Positions 3,359 to 26,773 of a DNA stretch of 64,000 bases are shown in pieces. A program made the translations under genes and the position numbers. The notes below the pieces were generated by a model, which worked only from the letters and a program-made list of their open reading frames with translations, did no database searches and was not told the origin of the DNA. This stretch comes from Paracidovorax avenae ATCC 19860 (lineage in GTDB: Bacteria > Pseudomonadota > Gammaproteobacteria > Burkholderiales > Burkholderiaceae_C), in NCBI RefSeq assembly GCF_000176855.2, contig NC_015138.1, positions 186,001 to 250,000 of the forward strand, given 5' to 3'. Position 1 is the stretch's first letter. The number at the start of each line of letters is the position of its first letter.

Positions 3359-3430
3359 TGTCGCGCGTGCCGGACCGCGTGCCGCCGGCAGGCACGGGGC
3401 CGGCATTCCGGTCGGCCCTGCGGCGCGCCT

Positions 3431-6400
3431 TCAGCGCCTGCGGCGGTGGCGCGTCTTGGCGGGAGGCGGTGCCGTGCTGGACGAGGCGGCTGCAGCCGCG
3501 GCGGCGAGTTCCTGCCCACGGGTGGTGACCGTGACTTCGAACGCCTTGAGCCGCTGCATGCACTCCAGCGACGCCTTGAGCATCTTCCTGACCAGGTGGG
3601 CATTGCCGTCATCGCGCAGTTCGCGGAGGGCGAACCGGTTCTTCTCGGAGAGGTCGTTGTGGAGTAAATCGATGAGTTCGGTGCAGGCTTCCAGGTCTTT
3701 CGCCGTGCGCCGCTGCACGTCCGGGCCCAGGAACCTGGCGAGCCAGTGCGCGGCCACCTGGGCCTGGACGATGGTGCTTTCGAATTTGCCGCGCCACATC
3801 AGCATGCCGAATGCGCCTTCCATGTTCGCCTTCTCGGCCTGCGCGATGTCCGCATAGCCCGGGAGCCGGCTCTCCGCGTCCAGCCGCTGCGCCATGTGCT
3901 CCAGGCTGTCATCGATTTTCTGGGTCGCGCGCTCATAGCGGTCTGCGATGGTCATCAGGCCATCCCGGACGTCGCGGGGCCGGGTGGCCTCCCGGGCGTG
4001 GACGCCGATCGCGATCGACCGGCACTCCAGGAGGTGGCCCAGGCCATCCAGGCTCCGCTGCATCAGGGTCACCAGTCGTTCGCTCTGGCGGATGTTCGCG
4101 CCGTCGATCATGGCGGCCTGGCGGCCGCTGCGGGACGACAGCCGCATGCTGGCCTCCAGGTAGTCGCCCAGGGCACCGGCCGCGTCCTGCTGATAGGTGA
4201 GCGCTTTTCTGGCGAACTGCCGTGCGACCCGCGGCTGCTGGTCTGCCGGCGCCTGGGCGATGGCCTGCGAGGCTTCGTGGAAGAGCTGCAGCAGGCCGGA
4301 GGTGACCCGTGCGGCATAGGCCGTCTCGCTGAGGCTGTTGCGGGAGGTCTGGTAGTCCTGCGCCATCTCCGGCAAGGTGCCGGGCGGCAGCACCGGCAGC
4401 AGGGTGGCGCGCAGGTCGGTGGCGCGTTGCGCGATGGCTGCCACGCGCGCTGCCAACTCCAGGTCTTCGGGCGGGACTGCCGGGGCGGGCGAGGCCTGTG
4501 CCGATGGCGCGACCGACCCATCGTTCGTGAAATGCAGCGGCAGGTCGAAGGCCAGTTCATGGATGGACAGCATCCGGTCGCTGAGTTGGGACGTTGCGGC
4601 CTGGAGGTCTGCCTCGCTGGCCTCGCGCAGGCTGTCGATGGCCTTCATGCCGTGCAGCAGGGCGAAGCTGATGGCATCCGTCCGCAGGCCGTCGCACCAG
4701 CGCACCCAATGCTGCAATGGGATCTTGAAGGCGGAAGGAGCGGCTTCACGGGCCTGCCGGGCCGCCCTGTCCAGAGCGTCGGCACGGGCCAGGGCTTGCG
4801 CGGGGGTGTCCAGCGGCATGCGCAGGGCGTCGCCGGTCGTGGACAAGGCAGCGAATGCCCCGGCGATGGCAGCGATGTGTGCACGCTCGGGCAGTTCCGG
4901 CCCATCGATGCCATGGAGCGACCGGTGGAATTCCCCGGCTGCGGCCAAGGCCTGGGCTGCCAGGTGTTCGATGCCGGAAGGCAGCGGCTGTTGCGCGGTA
5001 TCTGCGGACAGCACAGGCACGGCGGCCCTCCAGATCTTTTCGAAGGACTGTTCCAGTGCCGAGAGGGCGGTCTCGAGCGTGGCGGTACGGGCCGTGTCGA
5101 TGCGTGCCTGCAGCGCGCCGATGGTTCCGCTGGATTCCTGGCGCTGCGCCACGGTCCAGCCGACGAGGTGCTCGCCGAGCATGGACTGCGCCTGCTGCAC
5201 GGCGTCCAGCCCCTGGCGCAGCTGTCCGACCAGGTCGCCGGGCCGTCGCCATGGCACCGATGGCAGGTTCTGCCCATCGCCGGTGGCGACGGCCGGCCGA
5301 AGTGGCTGCTCCGTCGTCGGGAACGCAGCCTCCACTGCGGCCTGCAGCGCGCTTTCCCTCCGGGCGCGGGCCTGGCCTGCGATCTCCGCGTCCATTTCCG
5401 CGGCGCTGCGCAGCGCGCCGTCGCAGGCCGTGCCGCAGAGGTATGCCAGCTGGTGCATGGCCGGGGCCATGTCTCCCCAGGCCGCCGCCCGGGCCTGTTG
5501 TCCGGCGGCCTGCAGGCGTGCCGCGTGGTCTCTCGCCTCCGCCGCCGTGCGGGGGGCGTGCATCATGTCTTCGCATGCCTGGGCGACGGCGGCGCATACC
5601 GCACTGCACCGCTCCAAGGTGAGCGGGGCCATGCTCGCATGCATTCCTGATCGTTCCAGTGCATCCCGGGCATGCCGGGCGGCCTCGGCCGCGCCGGCCA
5701 GCGCGTGCCGGGCCGTGGCCGGGTCACCATGGGGCATTGCCTGCGCTGCGTGGAGGCCTTGCCTGGCCAGGTGGCCCAGCAATTGCAGGACCACTGCCCG
5801 GCCCCGGTCCGATGCGGTCGCTTGCGCGGCGGCAATGCGCGCCTGCAGGCTGCCGATGGCATCGCGCGAGGCCTCGTGCTGCTCGGGGCTCCACGGCGCG
5901 GTGTGGGCCTCGAGCGTGCGGCCGGCGTTCTCCACGCGCTGCAGGGCGAGGTTCTGTTCGCTGAACGCTTCCAGCGCCTGCCGCCAGGGCGCCTGGGGCT
6001 GCGTGTCCTGTCGCGTGCCTTTCCGTGCGGCGGCACCTTCCTGCGGTGGCTGCAGGCCGGCCAGCAGGGGAGCCATGGTTTTGTGCAGTTCCGCTTCACG
6101 CCGCAAAGTGGCGCGGCTTTCCCGGGCTTCGGGGTGGGTCAGGGCGCTTGCCTTCATGGCAGCCTCGGGGCCGGCGCCATCGGGCGGATGCGACCAGGCC
6201 TCGAGCAAGGCGCGCGCAGCGTCTTCCAGCGCGGCGCAGGAGTGCGCGTAGGCCGTGAGCCAGGCTTCCTCGATGGCGCCGGCTTCGCGGGCATCGTTGC
6301 CCGGCGGGGGCAGGCGCGACGGGATTCCGGGCAACTTGCCGTCCGGGCCGATCGCATCCAGCAGGTCTTTCATCCGCGGGCCGATACCGGCCAGCTCCTG

Positions 6401-7081
6401 GTGGAGCGCTGCGTCGATGTCCAGGACGGCGGCTGGCAGGCCTGCCAGCGTTTCGTACCTCCGCAGGCCGCAGGCCTCGCGCAGGCGGGCTGCGGCTTCT
6501 TCGTGTGTCCGGCTTTTGCCTGCCGCGCCAGCGTAGGGGGCCTGCCGCAGAAGGAGCAGTCCCTTCAGGGTCGTTTCCTGCGCACGCAGGCGGCAGGCCA
6601 CGGTCTGCAGCTGCCAGAGTTGCTGGTCGAGCAGGTCGGGGCCTGCGTGGGGCAGCAGCATTTCGCGTGCGGACAGCGCGGCCTCATGGTGCTCCGCTGC
6701 GGCTTCCCAGGCGATTGCGGCGGCCTCGATATGCCCCAAAGCCTGCTTCACTTGCATGAAGCCATTGGACCGATGGTTGTAGGTGGGCCGCAGGGCTTGG
6801 GATATTTCCTCCCCGGTGGGCAGTGTGCTGCCCTGGGCTGCCCGGGCCAATTCCGTGGCCTGGGCCACCATGGCATCCAGGGCCTCGGGCGTGCGTGCGC
6901 TGGCCAGTGCCTGCGTGATGCCCGAGATCCGTGCCCGGCGCGCGGCCTGGATCGGGCCGTCGTCCACGATGACATCGAAGCTGGCCTCGGAATCCGTGTC
7001 CGAGTCCCAGTCGGTGTCCGGGTCCTGGTCCATCCCTGCGGGCTCCGGATCGACCGTTTCCCCAGCCCGTTGCATCAGCAT
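3431..7081 (-). CDS. Large candidate type III secretion effector behind a PIP box
   Basis: The product is about 1216 residues from the chosen start, Ala/Gln/Arg-rich and predicted almost entirely alpha-helical, with many heptad-like stretches. It has an acidic Asp/Ser-rich segment near the N-terminus, a basic C-terminal tail (KTRHRRRR), and no transmembrane helix or signal peptide. I recognise no enzymatic domain. The reason to call it an effector is the promoter: a perfect minus-strand PIP box at 7391-7415 with a suitably spaced -10. The open frame continues far upstream to 7915 but would cross that promoter, so the longest start is rejected. The true N-terminus is uncertain. Possible starts are ATG 7081, ATG 7075, or a frame-shifted leader beginning at 7305. 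The gene is divergent from a second PIP-box gene. Function unknown. Confidence 0.7.
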   Translation of the reverse strand: MLMQRAGETVDPEPAGMDQDPDTDWDSDTDSEASFDVIVDDGPIQAARRARISGITQALASARTPEALDAMVAQATELARAAQGSTLPTGEEISQALRPTYNHRSNGFMQVKQALGHIEAAAIAWEAAAEHHEAALSAREMLLPHAGPDLLDQQLWQLQTVACRLRAQETTLKGLLLLRQAPYAGAAGKSRTHEEAAARLREACGLRRYETLAGLPAAVLDIDAALHQELAGIGPRMKDLLDAIGPDGKLPGIPSRLPPPGNDAREAGAIEEAWLTAYAHSCAALEDAARALLEAWSHPPDGAGPEAAMKASALTHPEARESRATLRREAELHKTMAPLLAGLQPPQEGAAARKGTRQDTQPQAPWRQALEAFSEQNLALQRVENAGRTLEAHTAPWSPEQHEASRDAIGSLQARIAAAQATASDRGRAVVLQLLGHLARQGLHAAQAMPHGDPATARHALAGAAEAARHARDALERSGMHASMAPLTLERCSAVCAAVAQACEDMMHAPRTAAEARDHAARLQAAGQQARAAAWGDMAPAMHQLAYLCGTACDGALRSAAEMDAEIAGQARARRESALQAAVEAAFPTTEQPLRPAVATGDGQNLPSVPWRRPGDLVGQLRQGLDAVQQAQSMLGEHLVGWTVAQRQESSGTIGALQARIDTARTATLETALSALEQSFEKIWRAAVPVLSADTAQQPLPSGIEHLAAQALAAAGEFHRSLHGIDGPELPERAHIAAIAGAFAALSTTGDALRMPLDTPAQALARADALDRAARQAREAAPSAFKIPLQHWVRWCDGLRTDAISFALLHGMKAIDSLREASEADLQAATSQLSDRMLSIHELAFDLPLHFTNDGSVAPSAQASPAPAVPPEDLELAARVAAIAQRATDLRATLLPVLPPGTLPEMAQDYQTSRNSLSETAYAARVTSGLLQLFHEASQAIAQAPADQQPRVARQFARKALTYQQDAAGALGDYLEASMRLSSRSGRQAAMIDGANIRQSERLVTLMQRSLDGLGHLLECRSIAIGVHAREATRPRDVRDGLMTIADRYERATQKIDDSLEHMAQRLDAESRLPGYADIAQAEKANMEGAFGMLMWRGKFESTIVQAQVAAHWLARFLGPDVQRRTAKDLEACTELIDLLHNDLSEKNRFALRELRDDGNAHLVRKMLKASLECMQRLKAFEVTVTTRGQELAAAAAAASSSTAPPPAKTRHRRRR

Positions 7082-7305
7082 CGCCTGCAGCCGTTCATGG
7101 GCCGTGGAAGCGGAAGGCGACGGGCGCCGGGGGGCATCGAGCTGTCCGGCGCGGGCGGTGAAGAACGGGAGGCCAGGCCACCTGGTGCCTGGCGGGACGA
7201 GGGCGAGGGCGAGCGGGCACCGCGTGGTGTCCCTTGCGGCGGGACGGCGCTGGCGGCATCCGGCCGTGCTGGAGGTGAGAGGGTGCGTGCAGGGACGGGG
7301 AGCAT
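7075..7305 (-). other. Short upstream reading frame, possible displaced effector N-terminus or coupled leader
   Basis: A 76-codon frame begins 42-50 bases after the predicted start of transcription from the minus-strand PIP-box promoter. It is rich in Ser, Pro, Ala and Arg, the composition typical of type III secretion signals. It ends in TGA overlapping an ATG of the large effector frame (TGATG). Either it is the true effector N-terminus separated from the body by a one-base frameshift, or it is a translationally coupled leader, or it is chance. There is no strong ribosome site, so this stays a hypothesis. Confidence 0.35.
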
Positions 7306-7353
7306 GGAACAGGGAGAACGCCGGCGATGCGGCCGATGGCTGGTCTGCCACCC

Positions 7354-7415
7354 ATGGTGGGGCCGTGCCGCCCATGCGGTGGCAAGGCCCGCGAAGCCCC
7401 GCGCGATGGCACGAA
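7354..7415 (-). promoter_or_regulatory. PIP-box promoter (HrpX-type) for the large effector
   Basis: The minus strand reads TTCGT-N15-TTCGC (7415 to 7391), an exact match to the plant-inducible promoter consensus TTCGB-N15-TTCGB. After a 31-base spacer comes CACCAT (7359-7354), which matches the YANNNT -10 found 30-32 bases downstream of functional PIP boxes. Both the box and the spacing are right. The activator gene itself is not in the window. Confidence 0.8.
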
Positions 7416-7498
7416 GGGGAGTCAGGGCCCGCCCTCGAGGTGAGCGCCGCCACCGTGGCCGGCGCAGCGCCTGTCAGGCACGTGCAGCAGGCACGGGC

Positions 7499-7559
7499 TT
7501 CGCACAGGGGCAAAGCGGTTCGTGCCGGCCCGCCGCCCTGCACCGCGGCTTGCCAGCAT
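7499..7559 (+). promoter_or_regulatory. PIP-box promoter (HrpX-type) for the 282-residue effector
   Basis: The plus strand reads TTCGC-N15-TTCGT at 7499-7523, again an exact consensus. CAGCAT (7554-7559) follows after 30 bases and matches the YANNNT -10. The start codon at 7590 lies about 25 bases beyond the expected transcription start. This box lies back to back with the minus-strand one, 83 bases apart. Confidence 0.85.
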
Positions 7560-7589
7560 GGCGGCCATCGTCTATCTCGAGGCCACGCC

Positions 7590-8438
7590 ATGACATCCAG
7601 CATTCCGACATCCGCGTCGCTGCGCCGCACCCTGAGCCTTCCTCCGGAGCTTGCCTGCCTTCCGTCGTCGAGCGGTGGTGCCTCGCCGGCACGGCGCTCC
7701 ACCCGGCATGCGGCCTCGCCCCTGCACGGTGCCATCCGTGGCCGGGCGGCCACGGTCGATTCCGCCACCGCACGCACGCGCTCCGAAAGCCCCCGGCGCG
7801 CCCTGCCGCATGCTTTCAGTCGGCGTGCGGAGACGGAGCTTTCCCGGCAACTGCTGAGCGCCACTCCGCAGTCGCAATTGCAGCAGGTGAAAGCGATGAC
7901 CGTCGCGCAGCGCAATGCGGTGGAGGCCCAGATTCTTCATCGGCTCCATGGGGGCTCGCCGGTGGATGCAACCAGCACGACAGCGCTGTGGCTGGCGGTG
8001 CAGACGGCGCGGCTGCAGTCGGGTGCACAGGTGGTGGCGCCGGCCGGCTGGGTGCGCAGCGAGGCAGCCCAGGGGATAGATCAACTGATGGGGGCGATGA
8101 CCGGGCCGACGCTGGGAGACGCCACGCGTGCCGCCGCAGCCCGGGTACTGGGCGACCACTTGCACCACCAGGGGCCAGGGCCGTTCCTGAACGCTTTGGG
8201 CTACACCCTTTCGCTGGAACAGATTCCTGCGCCTGCGCTGGCATTCGCGGCAGAGGTGCGGCAGGCCGTGGCGGAAACACGCGGCAGCGAGACGGTGGCG
8301 CGGTTCGCCGACGCCTTGCGCCAGCACGGCATTCCCGATCAGGTGTTACCTCTGCTGGCGGCCGGCGCGGCATCGCAGGAGGAAGCGATGGCGGTCCTCG
8401 GCAGATACCAGAACGCCCTTTCCTCGCTGGCGGGTTAG
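7590..8438 (+). CDS. Candidate type III secretion effector, 282 residues
   Basis: The first ~90 residues are Ser/Thr/Ala/Arg/Pro-rich and look unstructured (MTSSIPTSASLRRTLSLPPE..., many SP and RR pairs), which is the usual make-up of a type III secretion signal. The remaining ~190 residues are alternating helices with no motif I recognise. There is no signal peptide or membrane segment. The frame is open far upstream, but the PIP box and -10 at 7499-7559 place the transcript start near 7566, which makes the ATG at 7590 the natural start. It is divergent from the large candidate effector, and each has its own PIP box, so both should respond to the same HrpX-like activator. The biochemical activity is unknown. 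Confidence 0.75.
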   Translation: MTSSIPTSASLRRTLSLPPELACLPSSSGGASPARRSTRHAASPLHGAIRGRAATVDSATARTRSESPRRALPHAFSRRAETELSRQLLSATPQSQLQQVKAMTVAQRNAVEAQILHRLHGGSPVDATSTTALWLAVQTARLQSGAQVVAPAGWVRSEAAQGIDQLMGAMTGPTLGDATRAAAARVLGDHLHHQGPGPFLNALGYTLSLEQIPAPALAFAAEVRQAVAETRGSETVARFADALRQHGIPDQVLPLLAAGAASQEEAMAVLGRYQNALSSLAG

Positions 8439-8464
8439 GCATCGCGGCGCCACCTGCGACGGCC

Positions 8465-10132
8465 TCAGTCCGGGAAAGCTCGCGCCAGGACCTGCCCGGT
8501 CTCCGCCGCGCGCAGATCGATCGCTCCGACAGTGCGCCCTGCACCGGGATCGCTCAGCCGCGTGGCGATGAACGCGTCGGCCACAGCTGCGGGCGCATGC
8601 CGGCGCAGCAGGCAGGCCTGGGCCAGCAGCACCAGCCGCTGCACCAGCAGGCGGCCCAGGGCCTCGAGGGCTTCCGGGGGCCGGGCCAGCAGCGCCTGCA
8701 GTTCGCGCAGGGCAACTGCGATGCGCGGTTCGCCCTGTGCGGCGGGAGCCAACTCTTCCAGCAGGGCATGGGCGGCCTCGGGGTCGCGGGCCAGCGCCCG
8801 CAGCACGTCCAGGCACATCACATTGCCCGACCCCTCCCAGATGGAGTTGACGGGCGCTTCGAGGAAGAGGCGGGCCATCACGCCCTCCTGCACGTAGCCG
8901 TTGCCGCCGAACACTTCCATCGCCTCGCCCGACATCTCCACGCCGCGCTTGCAGACCCAGAACTTGGCGGCCGGCGTCATCACGCGCTTCCAGGCGCGGT
9001 CGGCCGGGCTGGCGGTGCCGCCGTCGTCGCGCTCGAAGGCTTCGGCCAGGCGCATCAGCAGGGCGAGCGCGGCCTCGCTCTCCAGCGCCAGGTCGGCGAG
9101 CACGGTGCGCATCAGGGGCTGCGCGGCCAGGGCCTTGCCGAAGGCATGGCGCCGGCGCGCGTACGCGATGGCCTGCACCGTGGCCTGCCGCAGGATGGCG
9201 GCGCTGCCCGCCACGCAGTTGAGGCGGGTATACGTGGCCATCTCGATGATGGTGGGAATGCCGCGGCCCTCTTCGCCCATGAGCACGCCCCAGGCATCGT
9301 CGAACTCGACCTCGCCGCTGGCGTTGCTGCGGTTGCCCACCTTGTCCTTGAGGCGTTGCACGTGCACGCCGTTGAGCGTGCCGTCCGGAAGGCGGCGCGG
9401 CACGTAGAAGCAGGCGAAGGGGCCGCCTTCGCCCGTGCGCGCCACCACGAGGTGTGCATCGCTCTGCGGGGTGGAGAAGAACCACTTGTGGCCCCGCAGC
9501 CGGTATTCGCCGCCGCGCCCGCCTGCGCCCAGGGGCATGGCCACGGTGGTGTTGGCGCGCACGTCGGAGCCGCCCTGTTTTTCCGTCATGCCCATGCCCA
9601 GCCAGATGCCGGCTTTTTCATGCGCGGGCAGCTCGCGCGGGTCATGGGTGCGGCTGTGGAGCCGGTCGCCCAGCTGTGCCCAGAGCGCGGGCTCCTTGCG
9701 CAGCAGCGGAATCGCGGCCTGCGTCATTGTGGCGGGGCAGAGCGTGCCCTGTTCCACCTGCCCGTGCAGGTAGAAGCCCGCGGCCCAGGCGGCCCAGCGG
9801 CCGGCCCGGTCGCTGTCGAAAGGCATGGAGACCAGCCCCTGGCCGCGGTAGAGCGCCATGAGCGCGTCCCAGGCGGGATGGAACTCCACCCGGTCGATGC
9901 GCCGGCCCCGGCTGTCGAAGCGGTGCAGCGTGGGCGTGTGGCGGTTGGCCAGCTGGGCCAGGGCCTGGGTTTCGGCGCTGCCGAGCCGGCGGGCGTATTC
10001 GCCCAGCGCGGGCAGTGCATGGCCGGCGCCCGCGCGCTGCAGCGCCTCCTGCAGCGCGGCGTCGGTGGCGAGCAGGTCGTAGTCGGCCAGCTCGGCGTAT
10101 TGGTTGAAAACCTCGTGGGTGGCCTGGGCCAT
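8465..10132 (-). CDS. AidB-like acyl-CoA dehydrogenase (isovaleryl-CoA dehydrogenase-like)
   Basis: The 555 residues exceed a standard acyl-CoA dehydrogenase (~390). The extra N-terminal domain and C-terminal extension are typical of the AidB branch. Family signatures include GMGMTEKQGGSDVRANTT (FAD/acyl-binding loop), HKWFFSTPQSDAHLV, and the C-terminal FGGNGYVQEGVMARLFLEAP with NSIWEGSGNV. AidB relatives bind FAD. E. coli AidB is linked to the response to alkylating agents and binds DNA, while many homologues are thought to oxidise branched acyl-CoAs. The start follows GGAGGAGACACCC. The adjacent LysR gene is on the same strand 80 bases upstream, but its job seems tied to the divergent gentisate operon, so co-regulation is possible rather than shown. 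Confidence 0.85.
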   Translation of the reverse strand: MAQATHEVFNQYAELADYDLLATDAALQEALQRAGAGHALPALGEYARRLGSAETQALAQLANRHTPTLHRFDSRGRRIDRVEFHPAWDALMALYRGQGLVSMPFDSDRAGRWAAWAAGFYLHGQVEQGTLCPATMTQAAIPLLRKEPALWAQLGDRLHSRTHDPRELPAHEKAGIWLGMGMTEKQGGSDVRANTTVAMPLGAGGRGGEYRLRGHKWFFSTPQSDAHLVVARTGEGGPFACFYVPRRLPDGTLNGVHVQRLKDKVGNRSNASGEVEFDDAWGVLMGEEGRGIPTIIEMATYTRLNCVAGSAAILRQATVQAIAYARRRHAFGKALAAQPLMRTVLADLALESEAALALLMRLAEAFERDDGGTASPADRAWKRVMTPAAKFWVCKRGVEMSGEAMEVFGGNGYVQEGVMARLFLEAPVNSIWEGSGNVMCLDVLRALARDPEAAHALLEELAPAAQGEPRIAVALRELQALLARPPEALEALGRLLVQRLVLLAQACLLRRHAPAAVADAFIATRLSDPGAGRTVGAIDLRAAETGQVLARAFPD

Positions 10133-10212
10133 GGGTGTCTCCTCCACAGGGATGCGGCGGCGTGCGCCAGAACCCGCATGGTGCCCGCACTCGCCCGTGC
10201 ATGCACGCGCCT

Positions 10213-11139
10213 TCAGGACACGGGCGAGGACGACACTTCGCGCAAGGCGCGCAGCATGGTGGCCACGGCCGTGCGGTCGGTCGTGTTCTCGCGCCAGTAC
10301 ATCGATACCGAGCCGAAGCCCGACAGCCGCACCGGCAGCACGCGCAGCGCGCCCATGTGCGAGAAGCGCAGCGCCGCCCGGTGCGATGCCAGTCCGATCA
10401 TGTCGCTGTGGCCCAGCAGGGTGAGGTTGAGCGTGACGGAGTTGGATTCCACGCTGCCCGGCGGCAGCGCGTGGCCGGCGGCGACGAGCGCGTTCTCCAG
10501 CGCGTTGCGGATGGGCGTGCCGCGCGGCCACACCAGCCAGCGGTAGTCCATCAGGTCGGGCCAGCCGGGCGGGCTGTCCGGGCGCTGCAGCAGCGGGTGC
10601 TGCGGGCGTGCCACCAGGTGGATGGGCTCCATGTAGAGCGTCTCGGCGTGGATGTGGGTGTCGTGCAGCTCCGGGGCGGAGCGGCCCACCACCACGTCCA
10701 GCTCGCCGTTGGCCAGTTGCTGCATGAGCACATTCATGGTGCTTTCGGCCAGCCGGATCTGCGCGCGCGGCAGCCATTCCAGCAGGCGCAGCACGGCCAT
10801 GGGCACCACGTCGGAGGCGGATGCGCCCGAGGTGCCCACCACCACCAGGCCGCTGCCACCGTCGCGCAGGGCCTGCATGTCGTCGCGGGCGCTGTCCAGG
10901 TGGGCCTCGATGCGGCGGGCATGGGCGATCAGCGCCTCGCCCTGCGGGGTGGGGCGCAGGCCGCGCGCATGGCGCTCGAACAGCACCAGCCCCAGGTCGT
11001 CCTCCAGTTCCTTGAGCCACTTGGAGAGGGCGGGCTGCGCGGTATGCAGCTGCTGGGCCGACTGGCTCATGTTGCCGGTCTGCGCGAGGCTCAGGAGCAT
11101 CTGCAGCTGGCGCAGCCGCAATCGGTGGGTCCAGTCCAT
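10213..11139 (-). CDS. LysR-family regulator, probably of the divergent gentisate operon
   Basis: A 308-residue protein with an N-terminal winged helix-turn-helix (about residues 8-66, MSQSAQQLHTAQPALSKWLKELE) and a C-terminal periplasmic-binding-like ligand domain. It is transcribed away from nagI across a 112-base AT-rich gap, the classic layout for a LysR activator and its target. By position it should sense gentisate or a pathway intermediate. The effector is inferred, not visible in sequence. The frame extends 17 codons further upstream, but the ATG at 11139 gives the standard LysR N-terminus. Confidence 0.85.
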   Translation of the reverse strand: MDWTHRLRLRQLQMLLSLAQTGNMSQSAQQLHTAQPALSKWLKELEDDLGLVLFERHARGLRPTPQGEALIAHARRIEAHLDSARDDMQALRDGGSGLVVVGTSGASASDVVPMAVLRLLEWLPRAQIRLAESTMNVLMQQLANGELDVVVGRSAPELHDTHIHAETLYMEPIHLVARPQHPLLQRPDSPPGWPDLMDYRWLVWPRGTPIRNALENALVAAGHALPPGSVESNSVTLNLTLLGHSDMIGLASHRAALRFSHMGALRVLPVRLSGFGSVSMYWRENTTDRTAVATMLRALREVSSSPVS

Positions 11140-11251
11140 GGCGCGGTCCTTGGTGTCGAGGTATATCCAAAAGATTATGAATAAGACCAATAAATGATTT
11201 TACGGACTATCGCTGGCGCCGAATAATTTCCGCAAATACAGGAGACAACGC
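11140..11251. promoter_or_regulatory. Divergent LysR/gentisate promoter region
   Basis: This gap is clearly more AT-rich than its surroundings, with tracts such as AAAAGATTATGAATAAGACC and AATAAATGATTTTACGG near 11170-11205. It should hold both promoters and the LysR binding site. I could not pick out one convincing T-N11-A dyad. The nagI start is preceded by AGGAGACAACGC. Confidence 0.55.
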
Positions 11252-12325
11252 ATGGACACGACCACCCTCGCCCGGCCCGCCGCGGAAGGCGCCCAGACGT
11301 CCGCACGCCAGGCCTACTACGACCGCATTGCCCGCCATGGCATGGCGCCTTTGTGGGAGTCGCTGCACAGCCTCGTGCCGCGCGAGCCGCGCCCGCAGGC
11401 CGTGCCTGCCTTCTGGCGCTATGAAGACGTGCGCCCGCTGGTCATGCAGGCCGGCGAGCTCATCAGCGCCGAAGAGGCGGTGCGCCGCGTGCTGATCCTG
11501 GAGAACCCCGGCCTGCCAGGCCGCGCCAGCATCACGTCCACCCTGTACGCGGGCCTGCAGCTGATCCTGCCCGGCGAGGTGGCGCCCAGCCACCGCCACA
11601 CGCAGTCGGCGCTGCGCTTCATCGTGGAAGGCAAGGGGGCCTATACGGCCGTCAACGGCGAGCGCACCACCATGCACCCGGGCGACTTCATCATCACCCC
11701 GTCGTGGACCTGGCACGACCACGGCAACCCCGCGGCGGACGAGGGCGGCGAGCCCGTGGTGTGGCTGGACGGCCTGGACATTCCGCTCATCGGCCACCTG
11801 GACGCGGGCTTCGCCGAGAACTACCCCGAGGCCGTGCAGCCGGTGAACCGCGCCGAAGGCCACAGCTTCGCCACCTTCGGCCACAACATGGCACCCGTGC
11901 GCCACCGCGCGGCGGACCCGACCTCGCCGATCTTCAGCTACCCCTACGACCGCAGCCGCGAGGCGCTGGACCAGCTCTTCCGACAGGGCGAGCTGGACGC
12001 CTGGGACGGCGTGAAGCTGCGCTACGTGAACCCCGCCACCGGCGGCTGGCCCATGCCCACCATGGCCACCTTCCTGCAGTTCCTGCCCGCGGGCTTCCAG
12101 GGGCGCACCTACCGCGCCACCGATGCCACCGTGTTCAGCGTGGTCGAGGGCCAGGGCACGGCGCGCATCGGCGGCAGCACCTTCCAGTTCGGGCCGCGCG
12201 ACACCTTCGTCGCGCCGTCGTGGGTGCCGGTGCAATTGGCGGCCACGCAGGACGCGGTGCTGTTCAGCTATTCCGACCGCCCCGTGCAGATAGCCCTCAA
12301 CCTCCACCGCGAACTCCGCATGTGA
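11252..12325 (+). CDS. nagI: Gentisate 1,2-dioxygenase
   Basis: This 357-residue bicupin is the usual size for the family. The first cupin carries the iron ligands in [16 protein letters not shown] (His ~114 and ~116) and the later WTWHDHGN (His ~155 and ~157). The second cupin spans roughly residues 270-345. The enzyme opens the gentisate ring with O2 to give maleylpyruvate, using non-haem Fe(II) in the cytoplasm. It is the first gene of the nagI-nagK-nagL-transporter operon. The salicylate 5-hydroxylase at 26.9-30.1 kb supplies its substrate. A strong ribosome site (AGGAGACAACGC) precedes the ATG. The family also contains salicylate- and hydroxynaphthoate-cleaving members, but the neighbours favour gentisate. 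Confidence 0.93.
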
Positions 12326-12332
12326 CGGGGCG

Positions 12333-12428
12333 CGGTCCACAGAGCCTCCCTGGCGGCGTTGCCGCATCTTGCCGTGGCGCTGCCACTGTCTGCGATGCGG
12401 CGCCTTGCCATAGAGGCTCTGTGGACCG
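12333..12428. repeat. Long imperfect extragenic palindrome between nagI and nagK
   Basis: Two perfect 16-base arms (CGGTCCACAGAGCCTC at 12333-12348 and its exact inverse at 12413-12428) enclose a second, imperfect pairing (GGCGTTGCCGCATC with GATGCGGCGCCTTG) and a small central hairpin (GTGGCGCTGCCAC). The whole 96-base element could fold into one long hairpin. It looks like a mobile or REP-type palindrome inserted in the operon. It could also attenuate transcription or stabilise the upstream message. Confidence 0.75.
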
Positions 12429-12489
12429 CTCACGAGCGTGACCCGTCTTCCCCTTTGAACGACTGATTTCCTTAGAAAGAAAAACCATC

Positions 12490-13188
12490 ATGGCTTTCGT
12501 GTTTCCTGTTCCTCCTACCGTCGCCGTGCCTGTCGTGGGCAGCTCTGACGCTTTCGCCGTGCGCCGCGTGTACTGCGTGGGGCGCAACTACGCGGCCCAT
12601 GCGCGGGAGATGGGGTTCGATCCGGACCGCGAGCCGCCGTTCTTCTTCTGCAAGCCGGCCGATGCGGTCATTCCGGTGGCCTATGGCGAGACGCTGCGGC
12701 TGCCGTATCCGGTGCGCACCGACAACTTCCACTATGAAGCGGAGCTGGTCGTCGCCATCGGCAAGGCCGGCAGCGACATCCCGCGCGAGCAGGCGCTGGA
12801 GCACGCCTGGGGCTATGCCGTGGGCCTGGACATGACCCGCCGCGACCGTCAGATGGAGATGCGCCAGATGGGCCGCCCCTGGGAGATCGGCAAGGCCTTC
12901 GACGCCTCCGCGCCCATCGGCCCGATCCACCGCGCGAGCGACGTGGGCCACTTCGAGCAGGCCGGCCTCTGGCTCACCGTGAATGGCGCCGACCGCCAGC
13001 GCAGCGATGTCTCGCACCTGATCTGGTCGGTGGCCGAAACCATCGCCGACCTCTCCACGTATTTCCGCCTGGAGCCCGGCGACCTGATCTACACCGGCAC
13101 GCCCGAAGGCGTGGGCCCGGTGGTGCGCGGCGACCGCATGGTGGTGGGCGTGGAGCGCCTGGGCGAACTGGCGGTGGACGTGGTCTGA
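12490..13188 (+). CDS. nagK: Fumarylpyruvate hydrolase
   Basis: A 232-residue member of the fumarylacetoacetate hydrolase fold. The conserved entry motif VYCVGRNYAAHAREMG is at about residues 31-46, and the metal-binding acidic region includes NFHYEAELVVAIG. The C-terminal loop LEPGDLIYTGTPEGVGPV is diagnostic. It cleaves fumarylpyruvate to fumarate and pyruvate, the last step of the glutathione-dependent gentisate pathway. It lies between gentisate dioxygenase and maleylpyruvate isomerase, and the next gene starts 15 bases on. The 164-base gap from nagI holds a long palindrome. Alternative names in databases would be FAA hydrolase family protein. The operon context makes the specific role likely. 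Confidence 0.9.
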   Translation: MAFVFPVPPTVAVPVVGSSDAFAVRRVYCVGRNYAAHAREMGFDPDREPPFFFCKPADAVIPVAYGETLRLPYPVRTDNFHYEAELVVAIGKAGSDIPREQALEHAWGYAVGLDMTRRDRQMEMRQMGRPWEIGKAFDASAPIGPIHRASDVGHFEQAGLWLTVNGADRQRSDVSHLIWSVAETIADLSTYFRLEPGDLIYTGTPEGVGPVVRGDRMVVGVERLGELAVDVV

Positions 13189-20053: not shown

Positions 20054-20800
20054 ATGCAAGCCATCGCCCGCCACTCACGCGCCGCCGCTGCCTTTGCCAC
20101 CGCAGCCGCCGTCGGCAGCCTCATCGCCGCGCTGCCCGCCCAGGCACAGACGCAGTCGCAGCAGCAACAATCCGCACCGCCCGCTGCAGCGCGCACGCCA
20201 TCGACGGACTGGTCTGCGCCATCCCCCTGGCGCCTCTACGCCGGTGCCGCGCACATCGGTTTCAGCACCTCGGCCGAAGTGCGTGCCGGCGGGCAGCTGG
20301 TGCCCGGTGCCGACGCCAAGGCCGACGCCAACAACAGCCTCGGCTTCGGCGCCATCTATGACTTCCACCCGGGCTGGAGCGCCGAAATCGCCCTGGGCCT
20401 GCCGCCCACTACCGCCCTCAAGGGCACCGGCACCCTGGCCGGCGCAGGCACGCTCGGCAAGGTGAAATACGGCCCCGCCGTGCTCTCCGTGCGCCGCCAC
20501 CTGTGGGAAGGCGGCCCCGTGCGCCCCTACATCGGCGCGGGCATCAACTACACCCTGGTGCTCGAATCCCGCGATGGTTTCGTGTCGAACCTGGATGTGA
20601 AAAACGGCGTGGGCCCGGTGCTGCAGGCCGGCTTCGAGGTGCCGATCGACCAGCGCTGGAGCTTCTTCGTCGATGCGAAGAAGATCTGGCTCAAGACGAC
20701 CGCGACGGGCACGCTGCCGGTGCTGGGCGGGGCGCCTGCGCATGCGAAGGTGCGGCTGGATCCGCTGGTGGTGACGGCGGGGGTGAGCTACAGGTTCTGA
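20054..20800 (+). CDS. ompW: OmpW-family outer membrane protein
   Basis: 248 residues. The Sec signal peptide ends near residue 31 (ALPAQA). A Gln/Ser/Pro-rich linker follows, then an eight-stranded beta barrel with the family stretches WRLYAGAAHIGFST, GFGAIYDFHPGWSAEIALGLP and RPYIGAGINYT, and a terminal aromatic residue (SYRF) as the outer-membrane insertion signal. OmpW proteins form narrow hydrophobic channels for small apolar molecules. The Gln-rich linker after the signal peptide is longer than in E. coli OmpW. Monocistronic, and followed by GC-rich palindromes. Confidence 0.9.
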   Translation: MQAIARHSRAAAAFATAAAVGSLIAALPAQAQTQSQQQQSAPPAAARTPSTDWSAPSPWRLYAGAAHIGFSTSAEVRAGGQLVPGADAKADANNSLGFGAIYDFHPGWSAEIALGLPPTTALKGTGTLAGAGTLGKVKYGPAVLSVRRHLWEGGPVRPYIGAGINYTLVLESRDGFVSNLDVKNGVGPVLQAGFEVPIDQRWSFFVDAKKIWLKTTATGTLPVLGGAPAHAKVRLDPLVVTAGVSYRF

Positions 20801-20857: not shown

Positions 20858-21109
20858 GTGGCCTGCCCCGGCTACCAGCAGTCGCTGCAATCCAGCTTGG
20901 CCGGCGCCTACGAGCGCGTGGGCATCGCCGGCACCGTGAAGGTGGAATTCCGCGTGCGGGACGGCGCGGTGGTGGAGGTGAACCCGGTGGCCAGCCCCAG
21001 CGAGTACTACCGCACCGTGCGCTCGGCCGTGCGCCGCTTCCATTGCCAGGCAAGGGGGGGGGGCGGGGATGCGCTGGTGTCGTTGGATATTGTTTTTCGG
21101 GGGGAGTAG
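20858..21109 (+). pseudogene. TonB C-terminal-like fragment with a ten-G tract
   Basis: The 83 codons read as one TonB C-terminal-like domain (AGTVKVEFRVRDGAVVEVNP, then SEYYRTVRSAVRRFHCQ). Nothing precedes it: no signal peptide, no membrane anchor, no proline-rich spacer. The only start is a GTG directly behind a hairpin. It looks like the tail of a longer gene whose 5' part was lost. A run of ten G (21054-21063) lies inside and would be unstable by slippage. It borders the lower-G+C island that follows. It could instead be a short stand-alone secreted TonB-like protein whose start I misjudge. Confidence 0.5.
21054..21063 (+). repeat. Ten-G homopolymer tract
   Basis: A run of ten G lies near the 3' end of the TonB-like fragment. 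Runs this long are prone to slipped-strand changes and would shift the last ~16 codons. Confidence 0.85.
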
Positions 21110-21510
21110 GATGGGGCGGTAGCGGTCAGTCTGGGGCGGGGTTAGCTTCGGCCTTGGCTAAGACATTGGACAAAGGCGTATCGGAAGAGGCTCCGATGCG
21201 TCCTTTTGCTTTCTGGGTCGTGGGTGCTGTTAACGGACGCGGTGTGCGGGGTTCGTTGCTATGAACGGGGTTTCGATGGCTGCTTTGCAGCGATTGCGGC
21301 CGTTGGCCTTATACATCCCAAAGACAGGACTCAGCTAAGAGCGGGCACCTGCGAAAGACCGCATCAAGGAAGTCTGCCAAACAGGTTCAATCCCGAGGAG
21401 TGTTGCCGGTGGCAGCATCGGACCACTCTGGCGGCTTGCATACGTATGATTCCACTAGCCGTTGGCTCACCGAGCCTGGCTGGACCAGTTTTTACCCCGC
21501 TGGGAGGAAG
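21110..21510. other. Gene-free left flank of the lower-G+C island
   Basis: About 400 bases with base composition drifting from the GC-rich chromosome to the more balanced composition of the following gene. No reading frame with family resemblance was seen. A GGTTCAATCCC stretch near 21383-21394 recalls a tRNA T-arm but does not pair properly. The segment presumably holds the promoter of the large nuclease gene and the left junction of an insertion. No integrase or repeat could be identified. Confidence 0.4.
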
Positions 21511-24500
21511 ATGCACAACGTGCAGTTCGAGATCACGAAACCCACTGACGACGGGGCCTTCGAAGACATGTGCGCCCGAATTTACGGGACTGTCTTCAAT
21601 GACCCACTGCCGCAGACTAACGGGCGCCGGGGTCAGAAACAAGGCGGCATCGATGTGTTCATCGATGCACCAGAAGGCCGGCTAGGCATTCAATGCAAGA
21701 AATACGCAGACGGTGCCCTGAAGTTCAAGCACGTAGAGCATGAGGTCTCAGAAGCCGACAAGGCGAACACCCCAATCGTGCGTCTCATCGTAGCTACTAC
21801 TGCCACGAGTAATGCGGTGCTCTTGCGGGAAGTGCAGGACCTGTCCGATGCCAGGGTAGCTAATGGGCAGTATCCGGTCAAGATTGAGTTCTGGCAGGAC
21901 CTCTGCCGGCACATTCGCGGCAGTTCGAAGCTCCAGAACGACTACGCTCCAAATGCACCTGGCGCCGTCTTTCACCGCTTAGATGAACAGAACTCAGGGA
22001 TTGAGGCGAACCTGCTCAGCATCAACTCCAAGCTGGAAGTTTTGACGGGCCTGCCCAGCGGCCGTGCCGACTCGGTCAACAAGTTCATTACTTCGCAACT
22101 TGACGCTGTCAACGACGTGCTTCGAGCCGCAAGGTTCAAGGATGCCTTTGAAGACTTGCAGCGTATCGGCGCCGACATGTCGCTTTTCGATGTTCACCAG
22201 CAGGCACGCTGGTACGTGCAGCGGGGCGTCTGCATGTGGCATCTGGAGACCGGCGCTGCTGCTGCCCCTGACTTCCTTCGCGCCTCCGAGCTGTATCCCG
22301 ACGACGAGAAAATCGTAGCGGCGAAGGTCAGAGGCCTCCTCTTCACTGACAAGGTTGACGAGGCACTGGCCGCAGGGGGGGAGGCACTCGCAAGGTATCC
22401 CGTATCAGTCCACGTCTGGATTGCCCATGCCAATGCCAGGATGGTCAAGGGCCAAACCCTGGCGCTCGCCGATGCACCGGCCGCGATGCGCGACGACTGC
22501 GATGTGCTGCAGCTCCTTGCGTGGTCGCGGAAGAAGGCTGGAGACCTAGCTGGCGCCGTCGAGCTGAGCGCTAAAGCACTGGCCAAACCGAACGCTGCGT
22601 TCTTTGTCAGGAACACGGCGCTGGTGCTGGCACTCGAGGCTGCTGCCTGCGACCCCGTAAAGGTCGCGCATGGTCTGGTGGGCGAAGCAGAAATCGCCGC
22701 GCTTAGGCAGGCAGTCGAGGCGCTCACACCGCGAAAAGACCAGGTTTGGGCGGTGCAATCGCCGGGCTCAGTCCAAGACACGCTGGAGCATCTTGGCTAC
22801 AGTTACCTTGTGCTGGGTGCGCCTGGTGAGACTCTGGCCCTTATCGAGGAGGCCCGGCACGCCGGCGTGCTGACCTCTCGGCTGAAGCGCGTCGCATTAG
22901 AAGCCTATCGTCGACTAGACCGCTCAGACGAGTTGGGCCAACTTGGTCGGGAGTGGCTGGAAGACCTCGAGGAAGAGGCGTTGATACTGGTCGCGGAATA
23001 TGCTTCAGGTGTGGGTGATGTTCAGCTAGTCGAGGCCGTGCAGGCGTTGGTGACGAAAAAGGGCTACCAGCAGGCAGAGGTGCCGCACTTGCTGAGCGCT
23101 ATGCGGTGGGTCGCTCTTTGGCGCTCGGGCACCGGCAAGCTGCAAGCAGTGAAGGAGGTCAAGGCAGCGGATGTTGCGAACTCAGACAGCCTCGCCGTCA
23201 TATGTGGCGGCGCCCGAATACTGCATGCGGGTAAAGACGAGTTGGCAGCCGATGCCGCGATTGAGAAGGCCTGCACCCTGGTGTCAAAGGACACTGGTCC
23301 GGCAGAGCGACTCTTGCTCGCGGACCTGCTCTTCGCCACGGATAAGCTGGAGTTTGCCGCCCGTCAGTACGAGCTACTTGCTCCACGCGGCAAGCACTCC
23401 GAGCTCCACAATCGGCTGCTTCGCTGCTATGTGCGCACGGGCGCACTCCGCAAGGCGAAGGAACTGATCTTGTCGTTCCCAGACAACTGGACAAGCGACG
23501 AACGAGCATTGAGTCTCGCAATTGACCTAGGACAGCAGGCATCGGACTGGGAATTTTTGGTTCCCCTCGCTGAGTTGCATTGCGAGCGGCGCCCCCAGGA
23601 GGCCGGCGGCTGGCTGCTACGTCTCGCGCTCGACCTCAAGATGCGCAAGATGGCCCGATTCCACCATGTGCTTGAGTCGGTTCCGGCTGACTTGTCCGGG
23701 CCACCAAGACTCCTTTCTCAGGTTGCGTCTCTTGAGCTCCGCTTTGGCCGCAAAGAGATCGGCATGCTGCGGCTGTACGGCATGTTTCGTCGCAACTTCG
23801 ACGATGTAGATGTAGCATCAGCCTACTTGATCGCCATCATTGCCGGGCCTCAAGAGCTCCCATTTATGGAAGAGGAACTGACGGAAGTTCAGCCTGGGAC
23901 AGCCGTGACGCTCAAGAACGAATTGGGCGAAACGGTGACACTTTCGCTGGACCCGGCAGGTCTGTCGGGACTCCCAGTTCGCGAAGGCATGCTTGCTCCG
24001 TCCGATGATGTAGCCCGCAGCCTACTGGGCGTGGCCGTGGGCCAGCAAGTCTCTCTACCCGGACCCTTCGGAACCGAACTGCGCTTCGTTGTCGAAGGAG
24101 TGACAAGTACCTTCCGGAGGCTGCTTCACATCGCGCAGGCACGGGTCAACTCGCCCGTTGCTTCGAACCTGCCGGTGATGTCAGTGCCTGTCCCGGAAAC
24201 AGAAAAAGGCGTCGACTTCAGCCACGTGCACGCCATGCTGAAGCGGCAATTCGAGCACTCACGGCGAGCGCTTCAAGGCTACGCGGACAGCCCCATCACG
24301 CTGGGAATTCTGGGCAAGCTGCTCGGGCGAAGCGTGGTCGACATAGTCTTGGGGTGGCCGTCTGACGCGCCTCCCTTGTTCGTGTGCGCGGGTACCAAGG
24401 AGCAACGGGAGGCTGCTGTCGAACTACTCCAACGGCATGACGCCGAGTATGTTGTTGACGCTGCGACCGTTGCCGAGCTGGCGGCACTTGACTGTCTTGC

Positions 24501-25662
24501 CGCGCTGGCGGCGCTACCTCGCGTCTACATCTCTACGAAGGCCATTGAAACTCTCGAAGCTCGACTCGAAGAGGCGAAGATCGAACGCTCCGGCGGGCAG
24601 ATGTTTGATGACAACGGCACGATGCGGTTTGTTGAGTACACGAACCAGGACAGGGAGCGGCAGACTTCGTTCATTCAAAGCATGGTTGACGCGGTCCGAC
24701 AGCACTGTGTGATTGCTCCTGCTTATGGTCCGGAAGAGATTCCGGCAGACCTGGAGCGAGCGCAGGACGTTCTCGAAGACGAGGAACTCGCTGCACTACT
24801 ACTGACTGCGGAGAAGAACGCGGCCCTGTTCACCGTTGACGGGCGACTCGCCCAGTTCGGCCTTGCATCGGCGAAGCTCAAGTCGGTGTGGCCGCAGGAG
24901 GTTCTCCGGTACGCCGTAGAAAGAGGGAAGCTGACGCCCCAGCAATACACCTACGCTGTCGTTCGGATGTTTTTGCGGAATCGCAGCTTTGTCTCGCTAG
25001 GCTCGTACGACTTGGTGTTCATGTGCTTGCAAGGAGGCTACGCGTTAACCGAGGGGCTTCAGCGGTTCAAGGACTACTTGGCCTCCAGTTCCACAGAGCT
25101 CGTGTCGGCGGTTTCTGTTGCGTTCGAGTTCCTCGAACTGCAAGCGCAGCACCCCACTCAGTTCAAGGCGTTTGCGGAACTCATGGGTCACATCGTCGAA
25201 GCGGGCCTTCGCCATCCGCACTGCAATCAGGAAGGACTCTTGAAGGTCGCGCTGGACTTTGCATGCGACATAGCAATCAAGAGCAACGGTACCTTCATAC
25301 CGTACGCCCTTGCTGAGGGCTGCAGGCAGGCACGCATGCGTGTCTACGCCAAGATTCTCGGGGAGGAGGTTGAGGCCGCCGACCGGCTCGCCAGTTCACC
25401 GCCGCGTCGACGCGCAATCAAGCTGCGTGCGTTGAAGTGTATGCAACCTCCGTATCTCACATTCGATGGTGAGGCGAGGGATCCAGTCGAGCCATCTATC
25501 CAGCAAGTGGACGCGGCGCGAGGAAAAGACTTTCAAGCCGCAGGTGGTACGACCACGTTGGGCAGCAGTCAGGCAGTGATGCTGCCCCTCGCCAACGAAG
25601 CAGATGAAAGCTCTGAAGATGTGACAACACAACAGGAGCCGCCAGGGAGCGCAGCGACCTGA
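21511..25662 (+). CDS. Multidomain nuclease: restriction-type endonuclease, helical repeats, GreA/B-C-like domain and PIN-like domain
   Basis: 1383 residues. Residues ~12-135 form a PD-(D/E)xK domain of the Mrr type: FEDM (E18), GGIDVFI (D48), GIQCKKY (Q61/K63), then the VATTATS strand and EFWQDLC. Residues ~200-780 are TPR-like helical repeats. Residues ~790-880 resemble the C-terminal domain of transcript-cleavage factors GreA/GreB (VTLKNELGETVTLSLDP ... SLLGVAVGQQVSL). Residues ~950-1165 look like a PIN RNase (VVDAAT, DEELAALL, FTVDGRLAQ as acidic positions). An all-helical tail and an acidic disordered end follow. This suggests a soluble sensor-effector that handles DNA and RNA and may contact RNA polymerase, most likely in phage defence. 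G+C is visibly lower than the neighbours and the gene stands alone, both signs of transfer. The ATG at 21511 follows GGGAGGAAG. A TTG 37 codons earlier is less likely. Confidence 0.7.
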   Translation: MHNVQFEITKPTDDGAFEDMCARIYGTVFNDPLPQTNGRRGQKQGGIDVFIDAPEGRLGIQCKKYADGALKFKHVEHEVSEADKANTPIVRLIVATTATSNAVLLREVQDLSDARVANGQYPVKIEFWQDLCRHIRGSSKLQNDYAPNAPGAVFHRLDEQNSGIEANLLSINSKLEVLTGLPSGRADSVNKFITSQLDAVNDVLRAARFKDAFEDLQRIGADMSLFDVHQQARWYVQRGVCMWHLETGAAAAPDFLRASELYPDDEKIVAAKVRGLLFTDKVDEALAAGGEALARYPVSVHVWIAHANARMVKGQTLALADAPAAMRDDCDVLQLLAWSRKKAGDLAGAVELSAKALAKPNAAFFVRNTALVLALEAAACDPVKVAHGLVGEAEIAALRQAVEALTPRKDQVWAVQSPGSVQDTLEHLGYSYLVLGAPGETLALIEEARHAGVLTSRLKRVALEAYRRLDRSDELGQLGREWLEDLEEEALILVAEYASGVGDVQLVEAVQALVTKKGYQQAEVPHLLSAMRWVALWRSGTGKLQAVKEVKAADVANSDSLAVICGGARILHAGKDELAADAAIEKACTLVSKDTGPAERLLLADLLFATDKLEFAARQYELLAPRGKHSELHNRLLRCYVRTGALRKAKELILSFPDNWTSDERALSLAIDLGQQASDWEFLVPLAELHCERRPQEAGGWLLRLALDLKMRKMARFHHVLESVPADLSGPPRLLSQVASLELRFGRKEIGMLRLYGMFRRNFDDVDVASAYLIAIIAGPQELPFMEEELTEVQPGTAVTLKNELGETVTLSLDPAGLSGLPVREGMLAPSDDVARSLLGVAVGQQVSLPGPFGTELRFVVEGVTSTFRRLLHIAQARVNSPVASNLPVMSVPVPETEKGVDFSHVHAMLKRQFEHSRRALQGYADSPITLGILGKLLGRSVVDIVLGWPSDAPPLFVCAGTKEQREAAVELLQRHDAEYVVDAATVAELAALDCLAALAALPRVYISTKAIETLEARLEEAKIERSGGQMFDDNGTMRFVEYTNQDRERQTSFIQSMVDAVRQHCVIAPAYGPEEIPADLERAQDVLEDEELAALLLTAEKNAALFTVDGRLAQFGLASAKLKSVWPQEVLRYAVERGKLTPQQYTYAVVRMFLRNRSFVSLGSYDLVFMCLQGGYALTEGLQRFKDYLASSSTELVSAVSVAFEFLELQAQHPTQFKAFAELMGHIVEAGLRHPHCNQEGLLKVALDFACDIAIKSNGTFIPYALAEGCRQARMRVYAKILGEEVEAADRLASSPPRRRAIKLRALKCMQPPYLTFDGEARDPVEPSIQQVDAARGKDFQAAGGTTTLGSSQAVMLPLANEADESSEDVTTQQEPPGSAAT

Positions 25663-25861
25663 CGGACCGCTTCGAGACGTAGAGATTTGGAAGTTGGATG
25701 ACGTTTCAGGGATGGAAGTTGCCGCTCAGTCCCACCTTGTCGAATGACAGCTACCAGCCTATAGGCGACATTGATAAGCGCCCATGCTTCATGGAAAAAG
25801 TAGCGCCCCAATAGCTCCCGAATCCCGATGGCCGAAACGACGGTGCCGCCGCGCGCCTCCC
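25663..25861. other. Right flank of the lower-G+C island, no clear gene
   Basis: About 200 bases between the end of the large nuclease gene and the NagR-like gene. On the minus strand one frame reads RELLGRYFFHEAWALINVAYRL, which looks protein-like, but it has no start, runs into the LysR frame and could be a remnant of a disrupted gene. No terminator hairpin with a T-run and no direct repeat marking an insertion end was recognised. Confidence 0.35.
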
Positions 25862-26773
25862 TCACTCCCCTTCCGCAAACATCTCCACCATCACCCCCCG
25901 CAGCCACTGGTTCCCCGGATCCCGGTGGTACTTGGTGTGCCAGAACAGATTGATCGCCACATGCGGCAGTTTGGCGGGGTGGGGCGCATACGCCAGCCCG
26001 AAGGGTTCGGCCATGCTCTGGGCCATCTTTTCGGGCACGGTGGCGACCATCTGGGTGGCCTGCAGGATGTGGCCGATGGCGACGAAATGCGGCACCGTGA
26101 GGCGCACGTCGCGGGCCACGCCCATGCGCTCCAGCAGTTCGTCCACCTTGCCGTGGCCCGTGCCTTCGGAGACGACGACCACGTGCTGCGCCTTGGCGAA
26201 GTCGTCCAGCCCGATGCGGCGGCGCTTGTGCAGCGGGTGGTCCTGGCGGAACAGGCACACATAGGGCTGGCGGAAGAGGCGGCGCTGGAAGAAGCCGGCC
26301 TTCAATTGCGGCAGCAGGCCCACGGCCAGGTCCACCTTGCCGGCCTCCATGGCGTCTTTCAGGTCGGTCGCTGAATTGCGCACAGTGGTCAGGCGCACGC
26401 CGGGCGCCACCTGGGCCAGGCGCTCCAGCAGGCGCGGCAGGAAGTAGATCTCGCCGATGTCCGTCATGCCCACCTTGAACACGCGCCGGCTGGTGGCGGG
26501 CTCGAACCCCAGCTTGTGGTTCAGGGCGCCGTGGATCATCGCGAGCGCGTACGACACGGATTCCGCGAGCTGGTCGGCGTAGGGCGTGGGCTGCATGCCG
26601 TGGGCCGTGCGCAGGAACAGTTCGTCGCCCAGCAGGCGCCGCAGCCGCGCCAGGGAATTGCTGACGGCCGGCTGCGTCAGGCCCAGGTTCTCGGCGGCCT
26701 GCGACACCTTGCGCGTGACCAGCAGCTGCTGGAAGACCACCAGCAGGTTCAGGTCGATGTCTTCCAGTTCCAC
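25862..26773 (-). CDS. nagR: NagR/NahR-like LysR regulator of salicylate catabolism
   Basis: 303 residues. The N-terminal helix-turn-helix contains [23 protein letters not shown], almost the NahR/NagR/DntR signature. The ligand domain keeps hallmark stretches such as [28 protein letters not shown] and [16 protein letters not shown]. NagR and NahR use salicylate as inducer. The gene is divergent from nagAa with repeated TATTCAT motifs in the gap, as expected for an activator of the salicylate 5-hydroxylase operon. It is downstream of the lower-G+C island but has typical local composition. Confidence 0.88.

Follow-up and report, generated by a model that had tools for sequence, protein, structure and literature searches.

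A 64,000-nucleotide stretch of DNA from Paracidovorax avenae ATCC 19860 (contig NC_015138.1, positions 186,001 to 250,000; hereafter the window) was analyzed around a single large gene that encodes a member of the predicted TPR-GreAB-C-PIN family. The open reading frame (ORF) runs from 21511 to 25662 on the forward strand without interruption across its 1383 codons, so the gene is intact. The start was taken as the ATG at 21511, not the upstream GTG at 21400, because the sequence GGAGG lies at 21503-21507. The features of the gene are as follows.

21503..21507, forward strand: GGAGG, ribosome-binding-like site 5' of the ATG at 21511 (read from the sequence)
21511..25662, forward strand: whole gene, TPR-GreAB-C-PIN family protein with an Mrr-type N-terminal nuclease domain, 1383 residues
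21511..21960, forward strand: Mrr-type PD-(D/E)xK domain, residues ~1-150, with E18, D48, and Q61-x-K63 (hhalign, conservation)
22078..23850, forward strand: TPR-like helical repeat array, residues ~190-780, outer borders inferred (PDB profile matches)
23878..24099, forward strand: GreA/GreB-C (Rnk/Gfh1)-like domain, residues 790-863 (Pfam, hhalign, PDB profile)
23995..24009, forward strand: aligned counterpart of the GreA polymerase-contact loop, with A829, D832, and D833 opposite Ser121, Ser124, and Pro125 (alignment)
24451..24858, forward strand: PIN domain (PF20698), residues 981-1116, with D983, E1013 or E1016, E1092, and D1110 (Pfam, hhalign, conservation)

The domain content was analyzed with a family alignment of 71 members, which was divided into domains, each compared by hhalign with reference sets of genomic origin: 30 stretches for Gre, 30 for PIN, and 29 for Mrr_cat, a 30th Mrr reference having yielded no usable translation. 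Left out of the alignment were L079 (a 548-residue open frame) and L099, L100, and L101 (below the PF20698 cut-off); L029, also below this cut-off, was not among the members taken further. As controls, 24 non-cognate pairings, including six other protein segments, gave profile-profile probabilities of at most 1.03%. In addition, a sequence profile of 37 members was compared with solved structures in the PDB, and 60 of the 128 hits were examined.

The Mrr_cat set matched the family nuclease segment with a probability of 96.2% over residues 13-79. The D...QxK motif of an Mrr-type PD-(D/E)xK nuclease is present in the 1383-residue protein as D48, Q61, and K63, and these residues and E18, all named in a first-pass annotation of this DNA, are mostly conserved among the 71 rows: E at the E18 position in 55 (4 gaps), D at D48 in 68 (3 gaps), Q at Q61 in 58 (4 gaps), and K at K63 in 58 (R in 9, 4 gaps). 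Most of the rows without the nuclease residues have a different N-terminal module or a truncated start. Nuclease activity of the protein is predicted from its conserved residues.

Behind the nuclease domain, consensus TPR structures were matched by the 37-member profile at E=1.8e-60, with the best stretch at residues 237-362, and further PDB matches of the repeat array fell within residues 400-699; the protein thus contains the TPR repeats of the TPR-GreA/B-C-PIN system. The next segment, taken as a single sequence, matched Pfam GreA_GreB at residues 791-864 with 13.3 bits, below the cut-off of 26.9. When profiles were compared, the family segment matched the 30 Gre domains with a probability of 97.7% and, with 98.0%, a set of ten PF01272 domains of lower score, eight of which were judged Rnk-like by eye, and structures of Gfh1, a GreA/Gfh1 chimera, and GreB were matched by the 37-member profile at residues 790-863/864 (E values from 7e-4 to 4e-3). 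Profile comparison therefore places a GreA/B-C domain before the PIN domain, although the single-sequence Pfam score is below cut-off.

Residues 981-1116 were recognized as the PIN domain itself by Pfam PF20698 (PIN-TPR-GreABC, "PIN domain associated with the TPR-GreAB-C-PIN system"; 72.5 bits, cut-off 27.8), and the family PIN segment matched the 30 ordinary PIN domains with a moderate probability of 74.4%. The conserved acidic active-site residues of a PIN ribonuclease are present, with D in 70 of the 71 rows at D983 and in 67 at D1110, and E in 47 at E1013 (D in 15), in 48 at E1016, and in 55 at E1092. Classical PIN domains usually have Asp where this protein has E1092. Compared with VapC-type PIN ribonucleases, the profile match and the first and last acidic residues are kept, whereas the protein is large, carries E1092 in place of the usual Asp, and has no second gene in its chromosomal slot. 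No PIN or Mrr structure was among the PDB profile hits examined, and a PDB search with the single 1383-residue sequence gave nothing useful. Profile searches with each segment thus found both the nuclease and the PIN folds, and the domain reading of the first-pass annotation was right for every domain, with PIN the least strongly supported when compared with ordinary PIN domains.

This architecture is not new, and neither is the idea that such a protein senses transcription. Kaur, Burroughs, Iyer, and Aravind (eLife 2021, PMC8195603) describe, in the passages available to us, a mostly standalone gene whose product has a TPR, GreA/B-C, and PIN core and one of 13 alternative N-terminal effectors, restriction endonuclease (REase) included. 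In their proposal, GreA/B-C engages a virus-seized polymerase and PIN cleaves the transcript extruded from it, with suicide by the N-terminal effector as a back-up; the counter-invader role is presented there as a prediction. The protein encoded in the window has the same core, the same type of variable N-terminal effector, and the same standalone gene, and in architecture it is no different; it is a straightforward member of this predicted family. The available text of PMC9503650 lists "TPR-GreA/B-PIN systems" among anti-phage systems able to carry sirtuin domains, and that of PMC13092281 describes other PIN proteins validated in defence, and also a one-protein system, DS-3, with the word GreA absent. 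The available parts of PMC7159879 do not describe the TPR-GreA/B-C-PIN system, and those of PMC10910872, PMC7824862, and PMC10907252 hold no relevant passage on it.

Based on the results above and the genomic comparisons below, the gene is probably a phage-defence gene that acts alone and has been exchanged horizontally, encoding an abortive-type protein of the predicted TPR-GreAB-C-PIN system, and a role of the 1383-residue protein in defence is likewise probable. In the mechanism we propose, the protein would be made at rest in an auto-inhibited form, and the TPR superhelix and GreAB-C-like domain would together act as the sensor of a partner specific to infection. The likeliest partner would be a transcription complex or a phage protein that acts on one. 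Engagement of this partner would free the PIN domain to cleave RNA and the Mrr-type domain to cleave DNA, so that the infected cell may arrest or die ahead of phage release.

The identity of the partner is where the published mechanism can be weighed. According to it, GreAB-C would clamp the beta-prime rim helices of host RNA polymerase, PIN would cut the transcript 3' end extruded through the secondary channel, and the N-terminal nuclease would serve as a back-up suicide effector. The GreAB-C fold on which this Gre-like docking depends is supported by the profile comparisons, and the protein shares with GreA, GreB, Gfh1, and Rnk the profile match of the C-terminal domain. Those proteins are stand-alone small factors, whereas here TPR-like repeats are matched ahead of residue 790 (as far as about residue 699), a point against simple docking. 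To relate the loop of this domain to published mutations, these were tentatively placed on alignment columns by the spacing of S121, S124, and L130 and the E. coli GreA sequence. By this alignment, all 30 Gre proteins have Ser and Pro at the last two positions of S121/S124/P125, and 27 of them have the whole triplet, compared with 1 of the 71 family rows (4 gapped), 36 of which have Ser at the S124 position, counts that are unsure for the most distant rows. The SxxSP loop is thus gone in nearly all family rows, and the 1383-residue protein has A829, D832, and D833 at these positions, two of the three acidic. The ten lower-scoring domains also vary, with A, S, or T at the S124 position of the Rnk-like ones and two domains without the Pro.

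Changes in this loop are known to matter for binding. The S121P variant of E. coli GreA lost polymerase binding, and S121T and S124L were not classed as binding-defective (available passages of PMC7527559); M. tuberculosis Gre S127E no longer binds polymerase, and the published primer suggests that S127 is the Ser that precedes Pro in this loop (available passages of PMC3132773). The loss of these residues in the family, with Ala, Asp, and Asp here, weakens simple Gre-like docking. With the fold preserved and the known contact mostly lost, the family would either dock differently or recognize something else. As far as the alignment can indicate, this loss weakens the published polymerase mechanism, without excluding it, and it is a point that the available passages of Kaur et al. 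do not discuss. Host RNA polymerase, held by the rim of its secondary channel as they propose, is a possible partner, and we regard both it and the docking mechanism as somewhat doubtful. A further alternative is that the GreAB-C-like domain no longer binds polymerase in the manner of Gre and instead recognizes an infection-specific partner, such as a polymerase modified by phage, a transcription factor of the phage, or another complex; this seems to us rather unlikely as a specific claim. The transcription-sensor idea of the first-pass annotation therefore agrees with that of Kaur et al., but its RNA polymerase step is unproven and meets loop residues that are not conserved.

The probable defence protein is modular at its N terminus. 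In the core tree of the 71 rows, a seven-member clade with a different N-terminal module is nested among members of the Mrr type, and other modules found in homologs are DUF4365 (on L087), bDLD3 (on L099), and a phosphorylase (PNP, on L101), the last two on proteins below the PF20698 cut-off. The N-terminal effector is thus variable, with the Mrr type here and other modules in homologs. A search of plasmids gave 45 records; in 8 of them a single place covers 77% or more of the query, and 28 match at most 10% of the query, inside its first 148 residues. On an E. coli IncHI1B plasmid, the Mrr-type module starts a 1040-residue protein, adjoining an annotated restriction endonuclease, and the rest of this protein has no significant similarity to the 1383-residue protein and a weak STAND match. 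Avs-type STAND proteins have an N-terminal nuclease module and a large C-terminal repeat sensor. The E. coli plasmid protein recalls these, and the layout of N-terminal nuclease and repeats in the 1383-residue protein is also alike, though Pfam found no STAND ATPase in it.

Another reading is a restriction protein against invader DNA: modified or incoming DNA would be attacked chiefly by the Mrr-type domain, and the remainder would serve as a regulatory scaffold, with PIN in a supporting part. This would fit the intact D48 and QxK and the presence of the same module in another architecture on plasmids. Homologs swap the module for others and retain the PIN aspartates, so what is constant in the family is the PIN core, and the restriction reading is unlikely.

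Seven proteins (L076, L080, L083, L085, and P0045-P0047) have a "TDD-type" N-terminal module of ~330-400 residues in place of the Mrr-type nuclease. It gave no Pfam match above cut-off in L076 and L083 and no convincing PDB match in L083.

The distribution of the defence candidate is patchy. Of 17 genomes of the genus, one has PF20698 and the other 16 lack it; among sampled genomes it was found in 16 of 399 for the family and in 14 of 398 for the phylum, 10 of the latter above cut-off. A protein search that scored only the 7996 candidates with most words in common gave 48 proteins, counting the query itself, with identities of 37-100% apart from one distant match at 21%. A homolog on a conjugative plasmid of Burkholderia plantarii matches residues 161-1247; its neighborhood includes an abortive-infection family protein, a RES-domain protein, and an integrase. 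A search of 50,697 phage records found no homolog.

In the chromosome, the gene lies alone between two conserved neighbors.

20054..20800, forward strand: left flank, conserved OmpW-like outer-membrane protein (named by eye)
21293..25755, no strand: exchangeable slot holding only this gene (homology stops at 21292-21309 and resumes at 25742-25755)
25862..26773, reverse strand: right flank, conserved LysR-type regulator (named by eye)

Orthologs of the LysR gene (at least 84% identity) are found in 14 of the 16 other genomes of the genus, and those of the OmpW-like gene (at least 79%) in 10. Homology on the left ends at 21292-21304 in L067, L072, and L108, and a 34-base match to L071 ends at 21309; on the right it resumes at 25742-25755 in L067, L071, L072, and L107, and weaker matches begin at 25742 (L103) and 25746 (L104). 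The other ten loci compared have no match in the border stretches, their similarity ending near the flanking genes themselves. The slot between these borders is 4.45 kb with a G+C content of 59.5%, and the gene has 59.7% compared with 69.8% in the window, as the first-pass annotation had noted along with the lone position, now seen as an exchanged segment that holds one gene, like the standalone genes of the published system. Among the 14 sister genomes that keep the LysR gene, a survey of the place beside it counted 4 with clear defence or conflict genes and 3 with probable ones, figures that stand without a genome-wide baseline for variable slots; the content of this place in sister species includes AbiD, a type III restriction-modification system plus DarTG, and other conflict genes. 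This comparison among sister genomes supports horizontal exchange of a single-gene defence candidate, the earlier suggestion for this locus, but defence activity was shown in nothing that we found. A housekeeping RNA-processing or transcription-quality factor, conceivable since GreAB-C and PIN domains are also found in housekeeping proteins, is very improbable given the absence of PF20698 from 16 of the 17 genus genomes, the lower G+C, the exchanged slot, and the 8 long plasmid matches.

Several points weigh against a phage-defence protein of this system. No PADLOC model matches the 1383-residue protein at E values up to 1, and the literature matches listed include no experimental work on the TPR-GreAB-C-PIN family. 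The match of the PIN segment to ordinary PIN domains is moderate, and the S121, S124, and P125 contact residues of GreA are not found in the protein. Four of the 14 sister genomes have other genes beside the LysR gene, in two the place is missing altogether, and the baseline noted above is wanting. The core tree was made by a quick method, and its long branches were flagged.

The new observations are a lone gene in a defence-carrying slot, the loss of the GreA loop residues, and the swapping of N-terminal modules, with the nuclease module found in an otherwise unrelated plasmid protein; the strongest new evidence is the positional support for defence and the doubt cast on the assumed partner. 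A 2021 in silico prediction for a widespread family thus gains independent support from genomic position, and the loss of contact residues turns its mechanism into a sharp question, whether the partner bound by GreAB-C is host polymerase or not. Should defence be demonstrated, this would be a single-protein system with DNase-type and RNase-type modules and a transcription factor-derived sensor. If the GreAB-C-like domain has been repurposed, it would be an immune sensor on the Gre/Rnk fold that unleashes DNA and RNA nucleases from one polypeptide; we know of no proven case of such a sensor unleashing two different nucleases.

Other contents of the slot were also recorded. Beside the LysR gene in L104 (genome G012), positions 2242-12574 carry an adenine-methyltransferase-like protein, a fusion of PfkB and nucleoside deoxyribosyltransferase, a PRTase-CE protein, and two QueC-like ORFs (by eye), a set that looks like a conflict system centered on modified nucleotides. 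The same slot in genome G005 (L067:1764-4292, reverse strand) encodes an 843-residue protein of ~50% G+C, a candidate slot gene with HSDR_N and AAA matches below their cut-offs and no PADLOC match at E 0.001. For the slot gene of G013, PADLOC AAA hits were given less weight as evidence, since such models are also matched by an ordinary ABC-transporter ATPase that lies in the slot of G007.

At the slot borders, neither attachment (att) sites nor a target duplication was seen in the border sequences or a repeat scan. The palindrome GCCTATAGGC lies at 25757-25766 of the window, at the right border where homology resumes; it is exact in L071 and L107, has one change in L067 and L072, and could mark an exchange point. 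Between the OmpW-like gene and the slot, an 83-residue ORF (20858-21109) is TonB-like by eye with no Pfam match, and the stretch from this ORF to ~21300 is kept in L067, L072, and L108.

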